Positions 13,227 to 57,767 of a stretch of 64,000 bases of DNA are shown here, piece by piece. Source of the stretch: Ensifer sp. LC11 (GTDB lineage Bacteria > Pseudomonadota > Alphaproteobacteria > Rhizobiales > Rhizobiaceae). A program made the position numbers and the translations under genes. The stretch spans positions 62,001 to 126,000 of the forward strand of contig NZ_MBSO01000009.1 in the NCBI RefSeq assembly GCF_001695835.1. Direction: 5' to 3'. A model generated the notes under the pieces. The model was not told where the DNA came from. It searched no databases and was given only the letters and a program-made list of their open reading frames with translations. Within the stretch, counting starts at the first letter, position 1; each line of letters starts with the position of its first letter.

Positions 13227-13278
13227 CCCCTCATCCCGCTGCCGCGACCTTCTCCCCGTCATTGCGGGGAGAAGGGAC
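13227..13278. repeat. Single arm of intergenic repeat family A
   Basis: CCCCTCATCCCGCTGCCGCG then CCTTCTCCCCG...CGGGGAGAAGG: one of the two arms seen at 1424-1475, 22166-22218 and 51430-51482. The partner arm is missing, so this copy looks decayed or is a half-element. Confidence 0.75.
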
Positions 13279-21950: not shown

Positions 21951-22006
21951 CGCGCGATTTCTCCCGGTTCGTCGTTCATATTGCCGCAGATTGGCGTGAG
22001 AGTTTG

Positions 22007-22218
22007 CCCCTCTCCTCGGGTTTAACCCGAGGACTAACCCTCTCCCCGCAGGCGGGGAGAGGGGACGAGTTCAACTGCGGCCGCAAGTCCTCAGGCAGGC
22101 GTTCCGACGACTTTTCCGACATCAAGACGCTATCGCTGAGCAAGTTGAAACGCGGCGTTGCCGCATGTCCCTTTTCCCCGTCAAAACGGGGAGAAGGTGC
22201 CGGCAGGCGGATGAGGGG
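22007..22218. repeat. Two-armed intergenic palindromic repeat (family A, copy 2)
   Basis: Arms in the same order as at 1278-1475: CCCCTCTCCTCGGGTTTAAC... first, then a CTTTTCCCCG...CGGGGAGAAGG hairpin ending GGATGAGGGG. The two copies have nearly identical arms but unrelated middle sequence. It fills the gap between the convergent carboxypeptidase and ABC ATPase genes. Confidence 0.85.
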
Positions 22219-31163: not shown

Positions 31164-31361
31164 TTGCCTACCGGATAAACGATACCCCTTGGGGCGCTAG
31201 TCTATCGCAACATCTGGTATTGCTAAAATATGTTCGTTCGCGGCGCCGCATTCGTTCGTGCGCCGCGCTGCGTTCGCCCGGCAAAATTGTCGCGCGGCGC
31301 AACTCGGCGGCCTGGGTGTCGCAAGCGTCGATTGACTTTGCGGCGCCCGCTTCCTAATCAT

Positions 31362-31745
31362 CTGGTGTTGGATGGTTCCCCCTTGTCGTGGCGATCAGGG
31401 GGAATAATTGGGAATGTGACGGATGGACCCAAATCGGGCATCCTTATCGCAGCCGACCCCGCGACTGTAGAACGGTCAGGGTTCGCCATCGGGTTCAATA
31501 ACGGGCTGTCGGCCGATTGCATGGGCAATCGGGGCGGTTCGGGATTAAGCCGGAAAAGCCACTGGCGTGGCATCGTGATCAGCCGGGTTGGACGCCTCTT
31601 CTTCTACGAATCGTCCGCCTTTCACGAGACTGGAAAGCGCCGGGAAGGTGAGGCGGGCCGTTCGGGTCCTGACATCGAAACCTCGCCTTCACGGGCGAGG
31701 CGATGTGGGTCCGTGACGCCGTGAGCCAGGAGACCTGCCACCCGA
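31362..31745 (+). promoter_or_regulatory. Cobalamin riboswitch upstream of cobP
   Basis: The conserved elements occur in order: GGTTCCC near 31375, AGGGGGAATAATTGGGAATG near 31398-31420, the CCCCGCGACTGTAGAACGG core at 31460-31481, ACTGG...GGGAAGG near 31629-31649, and a canonical B12 box GAGCCAGGAGACCTGCC at 31723-31739. Downstream, GGAGACG-N3-CGTCTCC (31764-31780) could form the expression platform before the cobP start at 31890. Adenosylcobalamin binding should switch off cobP-cobW-cobN-cobO. The exact 5' limit is approximate. Confidence 0.92.
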
Positions 31746-31889: not shown

Positions 31890-32414
31890 ATGAGCAATCC
31901 CAGCGCCGGACCCGTTCTGGTCCTCGGCGGCGCCCGTTCCGGCAAGTCCAGCTTTTCCGAGACGCTTGTCGAAGCGTCCGGGCTCACCATGCATTATGTC
32001 GCCACGGGACGCGCCTGGGACGACGAAATGCGTGCGCGCATCGACCATCACAAGACGCGCCGCGGCCAAGGCTGGACGACACATGAGGAGCCGGTTGATC
32101 TCGTCGGCATCCTCAGGCGCATCGATGACCCCCACCATGTCGTGCTGATCGACTGCCTGACGCTGTGGGTCACCAATCTCATGCTCGAGGCGCGCGACAT
32201 CGAGGGGGAGTTCGCAGCCCTTGCCGCATACTTGCCTGAGGCCCAGGCGCGCCTCGTCTTTGTTTCCAACGAGGTCGGCCTCGGCATCGTGCCCGAGAAC
32301 CGCATGGCCCGCGAGTTCCGCGACCATGCCGGCCGGCTTCACCAGATCGTTGCGGAGAAATCCGCTGAAGTTTACTTTATCGCGGCCGGTTTGCCGCTGA
32401 AAATGAAGGGTTGA
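31890..32414 (+). CDS. cobP: Adenosylcobinamide kinase/guanylyltransferase
   Basis: A 174-residue bifunctional enzyme that phosphorylates adenosylcobinamide and then forms adenosylcobinamide-GDP in nucleotide-loop assembly. The P-loop is [14 protein letters not shown]; the family motifs [60 protein letters not shown] follow and contain the guanylylation His. Length equals that of the P. denitrificans enzyme. It is the first gene after the cobalamin riboswitch, and cobW follows 3 bp after its stop. Confidence 0.97.
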
Positions 32415-32417
32415 TCC

Positions 32418-33482
32418 ATGACCACTGCGAAGGCCAGCCACGGCAAGATCCCGGCGACCGTCATCACCGGCTTCCTTGGCGCCGGCAAGACGACAATGAT
32501 CCGCAACCTGCTGCAGAACGCCGACGGCAAGCGCATTGCGTTGATCATCAACGAGTTCGGCGATCTAGGCGTCGATGGCGACGTCTTGAAGGGCTGCGGC
32601 GCCGAGGCCTGCACCGAGGACGATATCATCGAGCTCACCAATGGCTGCATCTGCTGCACCGTTGCCGACGATTTCATCCCGACCATGACCAAGCTGCTCG
32701 AGCGCGAGAAGCGTCCTGATCACATCATCATCGAGACCTCGGGCCTCGCTCTGCCGCAGCCGCTGGTCGCCGCCTTCAACTGGCCGGACATCCGCAGCGA
32801 AGTCACCGTCGATGGCGTCGTCACCGTTGTCGACAGTGCGGCCGTTGCCGCCGGCCGTTTTGCCGACGACCACGACAAGGTCGATGCGCTGCGCGTCGAG
32901 GACGACAATCTCGACCACGAGAGCCCGATCGAGGAACTGTTCGAGGATCAGCTTACTGCCGCCGACCTCATCGTTCTCAACAAGGCCGACCTGATCGACG
33001 CTTCCGGCCTGAAGGCCGTGCGCGACGAAGTCGCCTCGCGCATCAGCCGTAAGCCGACCATGATCGAGGCGAAGAACGGCGAAGTCGCCGCCGCGATCCT
33101 GCTTGGCCTCGGCGTCGGCACGGAAGGCGAGATCGCCAACCGCAAGTCGCACCACGAGATGGAGCATGAGGCAGGCGAGGAGCACGACCACGACGAGTTC
33201 GACAGCTTCGTCGTCGAGCTCGGCGCGATCGCCGATCCGGCCGCCTTCATCGATCGCCTGAAGGGCGTGATATCAGAGCACGACGTGCTGCGCCTCAAGG
33301 GTTTTGCCGATGTGCCCGGCAAGCCGATGCGTCTGTTGATCCAGGCCGTCGGCGCCCGTATCGACCAGTATTATGACCGCGCCTGGGGTGCCGGCGAAAA
33401 GCGCGGCACGCGCCTCGTCGTCATCGGCCTGCATGATATGGACGAACAGGCGGTCCGCGCTGCGATTGCGGCGCTCGTCTAG
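32418..33482 (+). CDS. cobW: CobW metal-chaperone GTPase
   Basis: A 354-residue COG0523 GTPase. It has the P-loop GFLGAGKTTMIRNLL, the CxCC-type metal-binding motif NGCICCTVADDF, the switch/walker-B like IIIETSGLALPQPL, and the guanine-specificity motif LNKADLID. A His/Glu-rich segment near residues 235-255 (HHEMEHEAGEEHDHDEFD) is a further metal site. CobW is thought to deliver cobalt to the CobNST chelatase; recent work on the family supports GTP-dependent metal loading. It sits between cobP (3-bp gap) and cobN, in keeping with that role. Confidence 0.97.
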   Translation: MTTAKASHGKIPATVITGFLGAGKTTMIRNLLQNADGKRIALIINEFGDLGVDGDVLKGCGAEACTEDDIIELTNGCICCTVADDFIPTMTKLLEREKRPDHIIIETSGLALPQPLVAAFNWPDIRSEVTVDGVVTVVDSAAVAAGRFADDHDKVDALRVEDDNLDHESPIEELFEDQLTAADLIVLNKADLIDASGLKAVRDEVASRISRKPTMIEAKNGEVAAAILLGLGVGTEGEIANRKSHHEMEHEAGEEHDHDEFDSFVVELGAIADPAAFIDRLKGVISEHDVLRLKGFADVPGKPMRLLIQAVGARIDQYYDRAWGAGEKRGTRLVVIGLHDMDEQAVRAAIAALV

Positions 33483-33578: not shown

Positions 33579-36500
33579 ATGCATCTGCTTCTCGCTCAGA
33601 AAGGAACGATCGCTGACGGCAACGAAGCGATCGACCTGGGGCAAACGCCGGCCGACATCCTGTTCCTGTCGGCCGCCGACACCGAGCTTTCCTCGATTGC
33701 CGCGGCTCACGGCCGCCGCGACGGAGGCTTCAGCCTGCGCATTGCGAGCCTCATGAACCTGATGCATCCGATGTCGGTCGACACCTATGTCGAGCGTACG
33801 GCGCATCATGCCAAGCTGATCGTCGTTCGTCCGCTCGGAGGCGCCAGTTATTTCCGCTATCTGCTGGAAGCCTTGCATGCCGCCGCCGTCACCCACCGTT
33901 TCCAGATCGCGGTGCTGCCCGGCGACGACAAGCCGGACCCCGGCCTCGAACCGTTTTCGACCGTTGAAGCCGACGACCGCCAGCGGCTCTGGGCCTATTT
34001 TACTGAAGGCGGTGCCGACAATGCCGGCCTGTTCCTCGACTATGCCGCAGCGCTGGTCACAGGGGCCGAAAAGCCGCAGCCGGCCAAGCCTTTGCTCAAG
34101 GCCGGCATCTGGTGGCCGGGCAGGGGCGTGATCGGGGTTTCGGAGTGGATAGGCGTCGTTGGTGGAGGTTTACCCCCCTCTGTCCTGCCGGACATCTCCC
34201 CCACAAGGGGGGAGATCCCGGATGCGGGCGCTCGTTCTCCAGAGGGTGGAGAGCGTGAGACGAGTGCTGGACATAACGACCGTGCGAGTGCCGCCAAATC
34301 GAACGCCGAAGCTGCTGTCCTCGTGCCAACCGCCGACCTTGGTCTTGGAACGAGTGCCTACCCCCAGCCAATCTCCCCCCGTGTGGGGGAGATGTCCGGC
34401 AGGACAGAGGGGGGTAACGCTTCCACGAACCCCACCATCGCCATCTGCTTCTACCGTGCCCTCGTCCAGAGCGGCGAAACGCGGCCGGTGGAGGCCTTGA
34501 TCGATGCGCTTGCGGCTGAAGGTGTCCGGGCGCTGCCGGTCTTCGTCTCCAGCCTCAAGGATGCCGTTTCCGTCGGCACGCTGCAGGCGATCTTTGCGGA
34601 GGCAGCACCCGACGTGGTGATGAACGCCACCGGCTTTGCCGTTTCCTCGCCCGGTGCCGACCGCCAGCCAACGGTGCTGGAATCGACCGGTGCGCCGGTG
34701 CTGCAGGTGATCTTCTCCGGCTCGTCGCGGGCGCAATGGGAGACATCACCGCAGGGGCTGATGGCCCGTGACCTTGCCATGAACGTGGCGCTGCCCGAAG
34801 TCGATGGACGCATTCTCGCGCGCGCCGTCTCCTTCAAGGCGGCGTCGATCTACGACGCGAAAGTCGAGGCCAACATCGTCGGCCATGAGCCGCTCGAAGA
34901 CCGGGTGCGCTTTGCCGCCAGCCTCGGCGTCAACTGGGCGAAGCTGCGCCGGGCCAAACCCGCCGAGCGGCGGATCGCCATCGTCATGGCCAACTATCCG
35001 AACCGCGACGGACGGCTTGGCAACGGCGTCGGTCTCGATACACCCGCCGGTACCGTCGAGGTGCTCAGCGCCATGGCGCGGGAAGGCTATGCCGTCGGCG
35101 ACATCCCCGAGGACGGTGACGCGCTGATCCGCTATCTCATGGCTGGTCCGACCAATGCGGCCAGCCATGACCGTGAAATCCGCGAGACAATTTCACTCAG
35201 CGATTACAAGGCCTTCTTCGATTCGCTTCCGAAACAGATTCAGGATGAGGTGAGCGACCGCTGGGGCGCGCCGGAAACCGATCCGTTCTTTCTCGATGGC
35301 GCATTTGCGCTGCCGCTTGCCCGCTTCGGTGAGGTTGTCGTCGGCATCCAGCCGGCGCGCGGCTACAACATCGATCCGAAGGAGAGCTACCACTCGCCGG
35401 ATCTCGTGCCGCCGCACGGCTACCTCGCCTTCTATGCCTTCCTGCGCCATCAGTTCGGTGCGCAGGCGATCGTGCACATGGGCAAGCACGGCAATCTCGA
35501 ATGGCTGCCGGGCAAGGCGCTGGCGCTGTCTGAAACCTGTTATCCCGAGGCGATCTTCGGGCCGCTGCCGCATATCTACCCCTTCATCGTCAACGATCCG
35601 GGCGAGGGTACGCAGGCCAAGCGCCGCACCAGTGCCGTCATCATCGACCACCTGACGCCGCCGCTCACGCGGGCCGAGTCCTACGGGCCGCTGAAGGATC
35701 TCGAAGCCCTCGTCGACGAATATTATGACGCCGCCGGCGGCGACCCGCGGCGACTGCGGCTGCTCAGCCGCCAGATCCTCGACCTCGTGCGCGACATCGG
35801 GCTCGATAGCGACGCGGGTATCGACAACGGCGACAGCGACGACAAGGCGCTGGAAAAGCTCGACGCCTATCTCTGCGACCTCAAGGAAATGCAAATCCGC
35901 GACGGCCTGCACATCTTCGGCGTGGCGCCCGAGGGGCGTTTGCTGACGGATCTGACCGTGGCGCTTGCCCGCGTTCCCCGCGGGCTTGGCGAGGGCGGCG
36001 ACCAGAGCCTGCAGCGGGCAATTGCGGCGGATGCGGGGGTGTGTTCTGCTGCGGGTTTACCCCCCTCAGAGGTAGTCAGCCCCGCACGCGACGCCCGTCC
36101 CTTCGATCCGCTTGATTGCGTTATGTCGGCCCCCTGGACCGGGCCGAAACCGGTAATCCTCACCGAACTCTCCAATGCCCCCTGGCGCACCGCCGGCGAC
36201 ACCGTCGAGCGCATCGAACTGTTGGCCGCAAAACTCGTTGCGGGCGAACAGACCTGCCCAGACGGTTGGGCCAACACACGCGCCGTGCTTGACGAAATCG
36301 ACACCCGCCTCAAACCCTCCATCTCCGGCTCCGGTGCCGCCGAAATGGCGGGCTTTCTCACCGGTCTCGACGGCCGCTTCGTCGCCCCCGGTCCATCGGG
36401 TGCGCCGACCCGCGGACGTCCGGATGTGCTGCCGACCGGTCGCAATTTCTATTCGGTCGACAGCCGCGCCGTGCCGACACCGGCAGCCTATGAGCTCGGC

Positions 36501-37646
36501 AAGAAATCGGCCGAACTTTTGATCCGCCGCTATCTGCAGGATCACGGCGAATGGCCATCCTCCTTTGGGCTGACGGCCTGGGGCACGGCGAACATGCGCA
36601 CCGGCGGCGATGATATCGCCCAGGCCCTGGCGCTGATCGGTGCCAAGCCCACCTGGGACATGGTCTCGCGCCGGGTGATGGGCTACGAGATCGTGCCGCT
36701 CGCCGTTCTCGGGCGGCCGCGCGTCGACGTGACCTTGCGCATTTCCGGCTTCTTCCGCGATGCCTTCCCGGACCAGATTGCTCTGTTCGACAAGGCGATC
36801 CGTGCCGTCGGCGCGCTGGAGGAAGACGATGCCGACAATATGATCGCCGCGCGCATGCGGGCGGAAAGCCGACGACTGGAGGCGGAAGGCGTCGAGCCCG
36901 CTGAGGCCGCCCGCCGTGCGTCCTATCGCGTCTTCGGCGCCAAGCCCGGTGCCTATGGCGCCGGTCTGCAGGCGCTGATCGACGAGAAGGGCTGGGAGAG
37001 CCGCGCCGATCTCGCCGAGGCCTATCTCACCTGGGGTGCCTATGCCTATGGCGCCGGCGAAGAGGGCAAGGCCGAACGCGACCTTTTCGAGGAGCGTCTG
37101 CGCACCATCGAGGCGGTGGTGCAGAACCAGGACAACCGCGAGCACGACCTGCTCGACAGCGACGACTACTACCAGTTCGAAGGCGGCATGAGCGCTGCCG
37201 CCGAGCATCTTGGCGGCAGCAGGCCGGCGATCTACCACAACGATCATTCCCGCCCGGAAAAACCCGTCATCCGCTCGCTGGAGGAGGAGATCGGCCGGGT
37301 GGTTCGGGCGCGCGTCGTCAATCCCAAGTGGATCGATGGCGTCATGCGCCACGGCTACAAGGGCGCCTTCGAGATTGCCGCCACCGTCGACTACATGTTC
37401 GCTTTCGCGGCGACCACAGGGGCCGTGCGCGACCATCATTTCGAGGCCGCCTATCAGGCCTTCGTCGTCGACGAGCGCGTGGCGGAGTTTTTGCGCGACA
37501 AGAACCCGGCCGCCTTTGCCGAGCTTGCCGAGCGTTTCCTCGAAGCGATCGACCGCAATCTCTGGACCCCGCGCTCGAACTCGGCGCGGTTTGAGCTTGC
37601 CGGCATCGGCACCGCCGCCACCCGGCTTCGCGCCGGCAACGAATAG
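33579..37646 (+). CDS. cobN: Cobaltochelatase large subunit
   Basis: A 1355-residue subunit which, with CobS and CobT, inserts cobalt into hydrogenobyrinic acid a,c-diamide in an ATP-dependent reaction. It shows the CobN/magnesium-chelatase subunit H features ILFLSAADTELSSIAA, YPNRDGRLGNGVGLDTPAG, GKHGNLEWLPGKALALS, TGRNFYSVDSRAVPTPAAY and the C-terminal AFEIAATVDYMFAFAATTGAVRDHHFEAAYQAFVVDE. It is some 80 residues longer than the P. denitrificans protein as I recall it (about 1275). The extra length coincides with residues about 198-280, which are encoded by a palindromic repeat element, and near residue 826 there is a likely repeat remnant (AAGLPPSEVVS). cobS and cobT are not in the window. 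Confidence 0.97.
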   Translation: MHLLLAQKGTIADGNEAIDLGQTPADILFLSAADTELSSIAAAHGRRDGGFSLRIASLMNLMHPMSVDTYVERTAHHAKLIVVRPLGGASYFRYLLEALHAAAVTHRFQIAVLPGDDKPDPGLEPFSTVEADDRQRLWAYFTEGGADNAGLFLDYAAALVTGAEKPQPAKPLLKAGIWWPGRGVIGVSEWIGVVGGGLPPSVLPDISPTRGEIPDAGARSPEGGERETSAGHNDRASAAKSNAEAAVLVPTADLGLGTSAYPQPISPRVGEMSGRTEGGNASTNPTIAICFYRALVQSGETRPVEALIDALAAEGVRALPVFVSSLKDAVSVGTLQAIFAEAAPDVVMNATGFAVSSPGADRQPTVLESTGAPVLQVIFSGSSRAQWETSPQGLMARDLAMNVALPEVDGRILARAVSFKAASIYDAKVEANIVGHEPLEDRVRFAASLGVNWAKLRRAKPAERRIAIVMANYPNRDGRLGNGVGLDTPAGTVEVLSAMAREGYAVGDIPEDGDALIRYLMAGPTNAASHDREIRETISLSDYKAFFDSLPKQIQDEVSDRWGAPETDPFFLDGAFALPLARFGEVVVGIQPARGYNIDPKESYHSPDLVPPHGYLAFYAFLRHQFGAQAIVHMGKHGNLEWLPGKALALSETCYPEAIFGPLPHIYPFIVNDPGEGTQAKRRTSAVIIDHLTPPLTRAESYGPLKDLEALVDEYYDAAGGDPRRLRLLSRQILDLVRDIGLDSDAGIDNGDSDDKALEKLDAYLCDLKEMQIRDGLHIFGVAPEGRLLTDLTVALARVPRGLGEGGDQSLQRAIAADAGVCSAAGLPPSEVVSPARDARPFDPLDCVMSAPWTGPKPVILTELSNAPWRTAGDTVERIELLAAKLVAGEQTCPDGWANTRAVLDEIDTRLKPSISGSGAAEMAGFLTGLDGRFVAPGPSGAPTRGRPDVLPTGRNFYSVDSRAVPTPAAYELGKKSAELLIRRYLQDHGEWPSSFGLTAWGTANMRTGGDDIAQALALIGAKPTWDMVSRRVMGYEIVPLAVLGRPRVDVTLRISGFFRDAFPDQIALFDKAIRAVGALEEDDADNMIAARMRAESRRLEAEGVEPAEAARRASYRVFGAKPGAYGAGLQALIDEKGWESRADLAEAYLTWGAYAYGAGEEGKAERDLFEERLRTIEAVVQNQDNREHDLLDSDDYYQFEGGMSAAAEHLGGSRPAIYHNDHSRPEKPVIRSLEEEIGRVVRARVVNPKWIDGVMRHGYKGAFEIAATVDYMFAFAATTGAVRDHHFEAAYQAFVVDERVAEFLRDKNPAAFAELAERFLEAIDRNLWTPRSNSARFELAGIGTAATRLRAGNE
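34170..34417. repeat. Palindromic repeat inserted in frame within cobN (family D)
   Basis: Terminal inverted repeats of 33 bp, perfect: TTACCCCCCTCTGTCCTGCC... (34170-34202) and its exact reverse complement at 34385-34417. Internal arms CATCTCCCCC...GGGGGGAGAT form sub-hairpins. The element matches the intergenic copy at 57595-57767 in its arms but not its middle. It is translated as part of cobN and contains no stop in that frame. Confidence 0.9.
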
Positions 37647-51429: not shown

Positions 51430-51625
51430 CCCCTCATCCCCCTGCCGGGACCTTCTCCCCGCCTGCGGGGAGAAGGGACGTTTTGGCACGCGTTTGCGGC
51501 TAACCGACCGTCTCATTCCCTTGCACCACAACGCCGCCGCAGGTGACGATGCTGCAGCCGTCCTCGTTCCATCTCCCCGGGCGCGGGGAGAGGGTTAGTC
51601 CTCGGGTTAAGCCCGAGGAGAGGGG
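51430..51625. repeat. Two-armed intergenic palindromic repeat (family A, copy 3, inverted order)
   Basis: The left arm CCCCTCATCCCCCTGCCGGG plus CCTTCTCCCCG...GGGGAGAAGG; the right arm is ATCTCCCCGGGCGCGGGGAG...TAGTCCTCGGGTTAAGCCC ending GAGAGGGG. It is the reverse complement of the order at 1278-1475. It lies in the 281-bp gap between the L,D-transpeptidase and fnrN genes. Confidence 0.85.
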
Positions 51626-51679
51626 CAATTCTGTGGAGAAACTTGGTGCGGCGGACGCTCCGCGAGACCTAAACGCCGC

Positions 51680-57594: not shown

Positions 57595-57767
57595 TACCCC
57601 CTCTGGCCTGCCGGCCATCTCCCCCACAAGGGGGGAGATCGACGCGCGGCTGGGCTGGCCGCTCCAATAGAAAGGCTCGCATTCGGAGCTTCATTGGAGG
57701 GCGAGGGGGTGCCACATCCAATCTCCCCCCTTGTGGGGGAGATGCCCGGCAGGGCAGAGGGGGGGTA
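57595..57767. repeat. Palindromic repeat (family D, intergenic copy)
   Basis: The left arm TACCCCCTCTGGCCTGCCGG plus CCATCTCCCCC...AAGGGGGGAGAT; the right arm ATCTCCCCCC...GGGGGAGATGCCCGGCAG to AGAGGGGGGGTA. The ends correspond to those of the element inside cobN (34170-34417). The middle differs and is shorter. It sits between fabF1XL and adh2XL. Confidence 0.88.

Follow-up and report, generated by a model that had tools for sequence, protein, structure and literature searches.

The 248-bp segment at 34170-34417 of the window (the whole stretch of 64,000 nucleotides of Ensifer sp. LC11 that was analyzed) is a palindromic element inside the cobN reading frame. We consider it likely that this segment belongs to a family of paired-hairpin palindromes dispersed in rhizobia and is carried as a tolerated, translated passenger in flexible linkers of CobN, with a drifting and invertible interior and with arms that are kept alike. 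What is new here, judging from comparisons of orthologous genes, is the apparent inversion of the interior between related species, each inversion giving a different in-frame peptide of about 30 residues.

Copies of this family would consist of two inverted 47-bp arms around a variable spacer and would lie mostly outside genes, and those inside genes would persist where the frame stays open and the site is a flexible linker. Two linkers of CobN, site A near codon 198 and site B near codon 827, would tolerate the element. As a translated passenger, its interior could mutate freely while stop-free, the arms remaining near-identical at the DNA level, and the inverted arms would let the interior flip with length and frame unchanged, as may have happened in cobN and ribD of relatives. 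We infer translation of the insert and mobility of the family, and take arm recombination or template switching to be the likely source of both the inversions and the likeness of the arms. The features are collected in Table 1.

Table 1. Features of the window in and around cobN, with positions, strand and basis of assignment.
Feature	Positions	Strand	Basis
Palindromic element, cobN site A, codons 198-280	34170..34417	+	Arm matching, genus CobN alignment, RNA folding
5' arm, read as LPPSVLPDISPTRGEI	34170..34216	+	Arm pairing and frame reading
Interior, lineage-specific, without visible protein constraint in orthologous inserts	34217..34370	+	Codon-position comparison
3' arm, read as ISPRVGEMSGRTEGGN	34371..34417	+	Arm pairing and frame reading
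Intergenic copy of the element, arms 57597-57639 and 57721-57763	57597..57763	.	Arm matching
cobN, cobaltochelatase large subunit, 1355 aa, element in frame	33579..37646	+	ORF, TIGR02257, PF02514
Cobalamin riboswitch, upstream of cob genes	31356..31504	+	32.5 bits, gathering score 31.5
cobU/cobP-type gene	31890..32414	+	ORF; named by gene order of S. meliloti Ak57
cobW	32418..33482	+	ORF; named by gene order of S. meliloti Ak57
Site B, probable deletion scar of a second element, TTACCCCCCTC|AGAGG, read LPPSE from codon 827	36057..36072	+	11-mer count, genus alignment

The element and its host gene

The host gene was identified as cobN by the TIGR02257 equivalog (1848.4 bits against a cut-off of 822.05) and by a match to PF02514, and structure comparison of its N-terminal model retrieved CobN and ChlH (7c6o, Z 18.0; 4zhj_A, Z 17.5), a comparison that tells nothing about the insert. 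Over 500 codons past the insert, the mismatches with the cobN of G011, the reference of the CobN alignment below, number 16 at first, 9 at second and 138 at third positions; because the mismatches fall mostly at third positions, cobN is under purifying selection. The annotated order in S. meliloti Ak57, whose CobN carries no element, is cobU-cobW-cobN-cobO. The Rfam scan returned nothing beyond the cobalamin riboswitch at the gathering threshold.

The two arms of the element (47 nt each) are 98% complementary, with a single mismatch at arm position 37. The palindrome described in the earlier note is therefore borne out, and its terminal inverted repeats are indeed perfect, over the outer 36 bp instead of the 33 bp given there. 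The predicted RNA fold of the element reaches -160.4 kcal/mol (z -11.4), and none of 200 shuffled sequences was equally stable. As the same note had it, the element is read through in frame, a single ORF running across it. AlphaFold2 gave pLDDT values of 27-38 for codons 201-280 and of 93 and 85 for the neighboring blocks beside 191-280, and the insert is thus predicted to be a floppy, disordered loop.

The arms are shared with an intergenic element, in agreement with the earlier note, which had placed it at 57595-57767. The arms of this copy are 43 nt long, and 44 nt match the site A arms at 95% identity. Throughout the genome, the arm pattern was matched 26 times at up to three mismatches, and the reversed control pattern had no match. 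A genome search for a donor of the window element found other copies matching its arms and none matching its interior. Two further repeat families with inverted symmetry were noticed in the window, one beginning CCCTCTCCTCGGGTTTAACCCGAGG (1254-1338, 21983-22067, 51551-51628) and one of the form CCTTCTCCCCGTCA...GGGGAGAAGG (1425-1452, 13248-13275, 22170-22197).

At site B, a short palindrome is probably what a second cobN element left behind. Against an expectation of 0.01, the 11-mer TTACCCCCCTC was counted three times in the window, once here and once at each end of the site A element. Two species of the genus, G003 and G009, have the entire element at site B, where it is flanked by AADAGL and FDPLDCVM. 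This second insertion site was absent from the earlier note. Deletion across the hairpin would remove an element and leave a short palindromic scar, as probably happened here. Palindromic scars were also read in an intergenic element of the S. meliloti group (L254 and L256; complete in L149). At site A of G003 (L057), a complete element is followed by a second in-frame copy of the 3' part (GTSARAQPISPLVGEMSGRTEGGN).

Distribution in rhizobia

At up to two mismatches, the arm is present in 216 of 394 Rhizobiaceae genomes and in 64 of 109 genera, and the reversed control gave 0 in the rows listed. Within the genus set, which was sampled without insert bias and in which CobN was found in all 16 species, three species carry the site A element (G000, G003, G009) and 13 lack it. 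When 89 CobN proteins were aligned, all insertions of at least 12 aa relative to G011 fell at reference position 198 or 740. Site A held an insertion of at least 30 aa in 26 of the 89 proteins and site B in 36, and 21 proteins had one at both; some of these insertions lack recognizable arms. The frequencies are biased upward and are no census, since the 80 named cobN loci were those that best matched a query which itself carried the insert. With the insert columns left out of the tree, sites A and B each required 18 changes of state. Seven of the 80 named loci were excluded from this alignment: L118, L120, L136 and L131 are long ORFs without arms, L084 is partial, L105 is open throughout and reads the element in its usual frames, and L090 is described below.

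The hosts of cobN inserts include Sinorhizobium, Rhizobium, Ciceribacter, Shinella, Pararhizobium, Peteryoungia and Phyllobacterium, and the insertion can no longer be regarded as a peculiarity of one strain. The strain-restricted occurrence proposed for checking was confirmed in the form of a patchy distribution. An extra segment present throughout the family and unrelated to the intergenic repeat, which would have spoken against the earlier reading, is not what was found; the insert is patchy, and its arms are those of the genomic repeat. In L105 (locus about 2080-2600), L283 and L070, other repeat-like coding segments adjoin the element at site A, with neighbor peptides such as SPSPRLRGEGARRADEG and LTLTLSPQAGRGN, resembling a nest of coding repeats in one linker.

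Inversion of the interior

Searched against genomes, the site A insert of L078 had its best matches outside L078 in the cobN genes of L079 and L064 (87 and 86%), on the strand opposite to that of the gene. A match of 86% was likewise obtained between the ribD inserts of G376 and G203, again opposite to the gene strand. Comparison of interiors in both orientations gave 0.54 direct (z 0.0) and 0.83 inverted (z 17.1) for L063 and L275, 0.56 direct (z 2.4) and 0.75 inverted (z 12.7) for L078 and L079, and 0.54 direct (z 0.6) and 0.73 inverted (z 10.4) for the ribD pair. Inverted in silico, the L078 insert reads GRRDRAGPPPEWEFTEKDSESTVPDEAEDACSES, near the GRGDHAASPPALVFAERDSEGPTPDEAEDACRES of L079. 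A joint tree without insert columns, which includes all five flip-relevant rows, recovered L063 with L275 and L078 with L079 as sister pairs (both 100/100) and required two changes of orientation. These comparisons indicate that the interior at cobN site A was inverted at least twice, unless the insert was exchanged between species, and that in ribD once (two species of one genus). A weaker candidate, L279 with L287 (0.55 direct, 0.64 inverted), was not counted.

Assembly artefacts, behind the inversions or the insertion itself, are an unlikely explanation. Inverted repeats of 47 bp around about 100 bp may confuse short-read assembly, draft contigs do end inside elements (in G224, five of nine stretches are cut at contig ends), and L078 comes from a metagenome assembly. 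Against this, the insertion recurs in many independent assemblies, G376 of the ribD pair is assembled in two contigs, and each site A orientation occurs in more than one species (L063, L064 and L079 versus L078 and L275). For the inversions, assembly error keeps a small probability.

Evolution of arms and interior

Mismatch rates by codon position, pooled over seven orthologous pairs, differ sharply between the parts. At first, second and third positions they were 0.057, 0.045 and 0.284 in flanking cobN, 0.265, 0.261 and 0.294 in the interior, and 0.062, 0.054 and 0.045 in the arms, so that the ratio of third to first and second positions was 5.60, 1.12 and 0.77, respectively. Since its rates are equal across codon positions, the interior evolves as if its amino acids were irrelevant. 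The arms are nearly frozen, synonymous sites included. The new coding sequence announced in the earlier note is therefore new only in the literal sense, as its interior shows no sign of amino-acid selection.

The frame stays open nonetheless: only one of the 80 named cobN loci (L090) was found broken inside the element. Inverted in silico, 11 of 30 inserts contained stops, which indicates that such drifting DNA does not remain open by itself. ORFs selected for being open supplied most of the inserts, whose stop-free state is thus partly built in, and the argument must therefore rest on the loci as a whole and not on the inserts. The L090 locus comes from Rhizobium sp. CCGE 510; a frameshift falls within the site A element of its cobN (about 2121-2290 of the locus), and the downstream frame holds the 3'-arm ATG; both a real split gene and a sequencing error are possible.

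The arms themselves vary in a correlated manner. Of 293 arms, taken from nine genomes and from the cobN genes, 289 have complementary bases at the variable pair in GNCCTGCCGGNC (T-A in 128, C-G in 120 and G-C in 41) against 114.2 expected under independence, an excess inflated by the relatedness of the copies. Because the two arms of one element may differ in type, each arm behaves as a unit. The 56 interiors had a mean folding z of 0.09, without excess structure, and structure therefore resides in the arms.

It might be proposed that the insert serves CobN or its mRNA, as a docking loop or as hairpin control of the message, and that the arms are conserved accordingly. We regard this as quite unlikely. 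The near-frozen synonymous sites of the arms, the very stable predicted mRNA hairpin and the presence of inserts in many genera would agree with such a role, but site A is empty in most species of the genus, the same arms lie outside genes and in unrelated genes, and the interior is unconstrained. A tolerated passenger therein remains our preferred reading.

Other host genes and reading frames

A set of 125 distinct elements was drawn from nine genomes, this one included; 117 were testable, and for nine of these the frame is open and the sequence on either side looks coding. Their hosts are cobN (twice), uvrB, ftsY, ribD (two species), an FAD protein (NadB in our own reading), a phosphonate-binding protein and a DUF2336 protein. 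The ribD insertion recurs at the same place in a third species (L316), and the annotated FtsY of Rhizobium sp. NLR16a also carries the element. In a transglycosylase gene, whose true start is uncertain, the element occupies the signal-peptide region.

All 28 complete cobN inserts of the first set read xPPSxLPxISPxRGE in the 5' arm and ISPLxGEMxGRxEGG in the 3' arm, with small variations. A second set of 30 loci, two of which duplicate G000 and G009, supplied 22 further inserts (L295-L298 lie outside these): 18 use both usual frames, and four have a different 5' frame and the usual 3' frame (L284 and L287 at site A, L293 and L294 at site B). In these four, the length of the insert restores the downstream frame. 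L296 and L297 have a different 5'-arm frame at both sites, L295, L296 and L297 keep their 3' arms in the usual frame, and L298 is without arms. The 50 complete cobN inserts include eight with an interior identical to that of another. In other genes, the 5' arm is read in all three frames and the 3' arm in one only. The single 3' arm read in a different frame, that of L112, is a weak match with five mismatches. If the sites are assumed to be independent, with two stop-free frames by inspection, the agreement of eight or nine gene sites on the 3'-arm frame has a chance of about 0.002-0.004.

The single 3'-arm frame could reflect a restart of translation at the arm ATG (GGGGGAGATG), a restart that might restore expression downstream of an insertion. 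All eight or nine gene sites use the ATG-containing frame, the frameshifted cobN of L090 continues in it, and in our own reading the transglycosylase-gene ATG would give a signal-peptide-like start. However, the purine run directly abuts the ATG, which is poor Shine-Dalgarno spacing, and selection for a hydrophilic peptide would also explain the 3'-arm frame; we think a restart improbable. The transglycosylase gene in question is a lytic transglycosylase gene on contig C4 of the window's own genome (L002), and the start there would read MPGRAEGGKRALFLAAVAAFLAFSLPAHA.

Orientation within species

Three intergenic plasmid loci (GST/ADH, mmsB and hutG-hutH) were compared at strain level, and no inversion was present among the records listed. 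At GST/ADH (60 listed of 210 matched), 29 records have full coverage, all on one strand, and 13 cover 88%; the 88%-coverage allele L254 is a deletion scar, and L302 has the same place as L149. At mmsB, 8 of the 60 listed (204 matched) have full coverage. At hutG-hutH (60 listed of 243), ten stretches comprised two full elements in the same orientation, one altered element, five of another repeat family and two with neither. In Rhizobium plasmids (L252, L303, L306-L313), the hutG-hutH gap thus holds the element, a CCCCTCCCC-type repeat or neither, as if the site were reused. In pSymB of S. meliloti 1021 and 2011 (H306, H307), the alignment breaks inside the GST/ADH intergenic element, possibly an insertion-sequence target; excerpts of PMC1525189 report S. 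meliloti REPs as such targets.

Tentatively, in-frame palindromes might act as invertible coding cassettes, in which arm recombination or template switching keeps the arms identical and flips the interior, swapping about 30 residues of CobN or RibD without frameshift, repeatedly in evolution and perhaps within populations. This is possible rather than probable; if true, CobN or RibD would gain a new stretch in one step. That such flips form a programmed switch, making two CobN or RibD variants within a population, is very improbable in our judgement. Its support comes from the inverted-repeat arms, from the at least three apparent inversions between relatives, and from the fact that both orientations are open as observed in each inverted pair. 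Nevertheless, the inverted frame is stop-free in 31 of 48 inserts (eight duplicates included) against 29.1 expected from codon shuffles, the window's own insert gains one stop when inverted in silico, and flips are absent from the 29 full-length S. meliloti-group records among those listed. Since inverted frames are open no more often than by chance, the element is better viewed as tolerated selfish DNA than as a programmed switch.

Bypassing or removal of the insert without translation, as in the mitochondrial palindromes of the yeast Magnusiomyces, is hardly credible, since frames stay open despite the drift of the interior and the insert lengths of L284, L287, L293 and L294 restore the downstream frame, even though a long hairpin closes the insert and a passage of PMC6649704 mentions translational bypassing of palindromic elements.

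Origin and mobility

Several observations bear on how the family may have spread. Arm to arm, 107 arm pairs span 106-236 bp, in which a transposase would not fit. The Y1_Tnp domain of RAYT (PF01797) was found in none of the 16 genus genomes and in 5 of 14 control genomes, which lends no support to a RAYT-REP system in the genus. No target-site duplication stood clearly above shuffled pairs, and the two empty alleles read at hutG-hutH were not clean. The flanks of Phyllobacterium copies look repetitive by eye, recalling mosaic repeats.

Old vertical inheritance with repeated loss explains the recurrent cobN sites and the single 3'-arm frame as well as repeated insertion does. In L068, sites A and B are 91% identical over nearly the full element, the next full-length copies listed in that genome reaching 75-78%. 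Where a gene has both sites occupied (16 genes), the identity of the two interiors is 0.74-0.83 in five cases and 0.44-0.60 in 11. Independent insertion, spread from site to site, and old inheritance with loss are all compatible with these comparisons.

Relation to known repeats

The resemblance to Rickettsia palindromic elements seen in the earlier note holds, in that a dispersed palindrome is read in frame in an essential gene and works alike. According to parts of PMC2229807 and PMC10969869, those elements lie in frame in many conserved genes, add tens of residues and are apparently tolerated. The likeness is one of organization, a multi-copy stem-loop palindrome with in-frame read-through of conserved genes, and membership is not claimed. 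Rickettsia elements are said to lose repeat identity (in a passage of PMC6649704), whereas the element here belongs to another bacterial family, has near-identical arms and a fast-drifting interior, and appears to invert in place.

REPINs, as outlined in a section of PMC3116915, have paired inverted hairpin arms around a spacer, with better conserved arms and many copies per genome. The element here similarly comprises two inverted hairpin-forming repeats and a variable spacer, but its arms are longer, it also occurs in frame in genes, and no RAYT-type gene was found in the 16 genus genomes. Like MITEs, it has terminal inverted repeats and lacks a transposase gene. Intragenic GTAG/CGTC REPs occur in uvrA, uvrB, recB and others, and two Xanthomonas recB genes have theirs at roughly the same position (section of PMC3733652); they form another sequence family, and that section is silent on inversion and on rates of arm and interior.

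RIME and the S. meliloti A/B/C and Sm repeats are short rhizobial repeats, several of them palindromic, which the relevant part of PMC2573895 describes as intergenic, whereas the element here also lies in genes; kinship with them is possible. Around chvI, the two-component locus from which RIMEs were originally reported (11-11.5 kb in six genomes, chvI being located by a motif), five genomes had no arm, and L270 carried an element some 5 kb away. Correia repeat enclosed elements of Neisseria are small repeats reported to invert in place (passage of PMC10969869). That passage treats neighboring promoters, whereas the inverted DNA here is coding.

A literature search of titles and abstract starts, with most subscription papers outside it, gave no report of a cobN palindrome or in-frame insertion, or of inversion of a coding palindrome, among the matches listed. 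The peptide strings SPLVGEM and GEMSGR did not occur among the literature matches listed.

Implications

The best-known coding palindromes are those of Rickettsia, which are obligate intracellular bacteria. Our results indicate that they are also frequent in soil and plant-associated bacteria that are free-living and have large genomes, where they recur at the same sites of core metabolic genes, and that enough orthologues exist there to measure drift of the interior without visible amino-acid constraint beside frozen arms. Length differences among rhizobial CobN, RibD and FtsY proteins accordingly need not mean functional domains. In addition, intragenic inversion, as suggested by the cobN and ribD pairs, would be a one-step route from an old protein to a new peptide.
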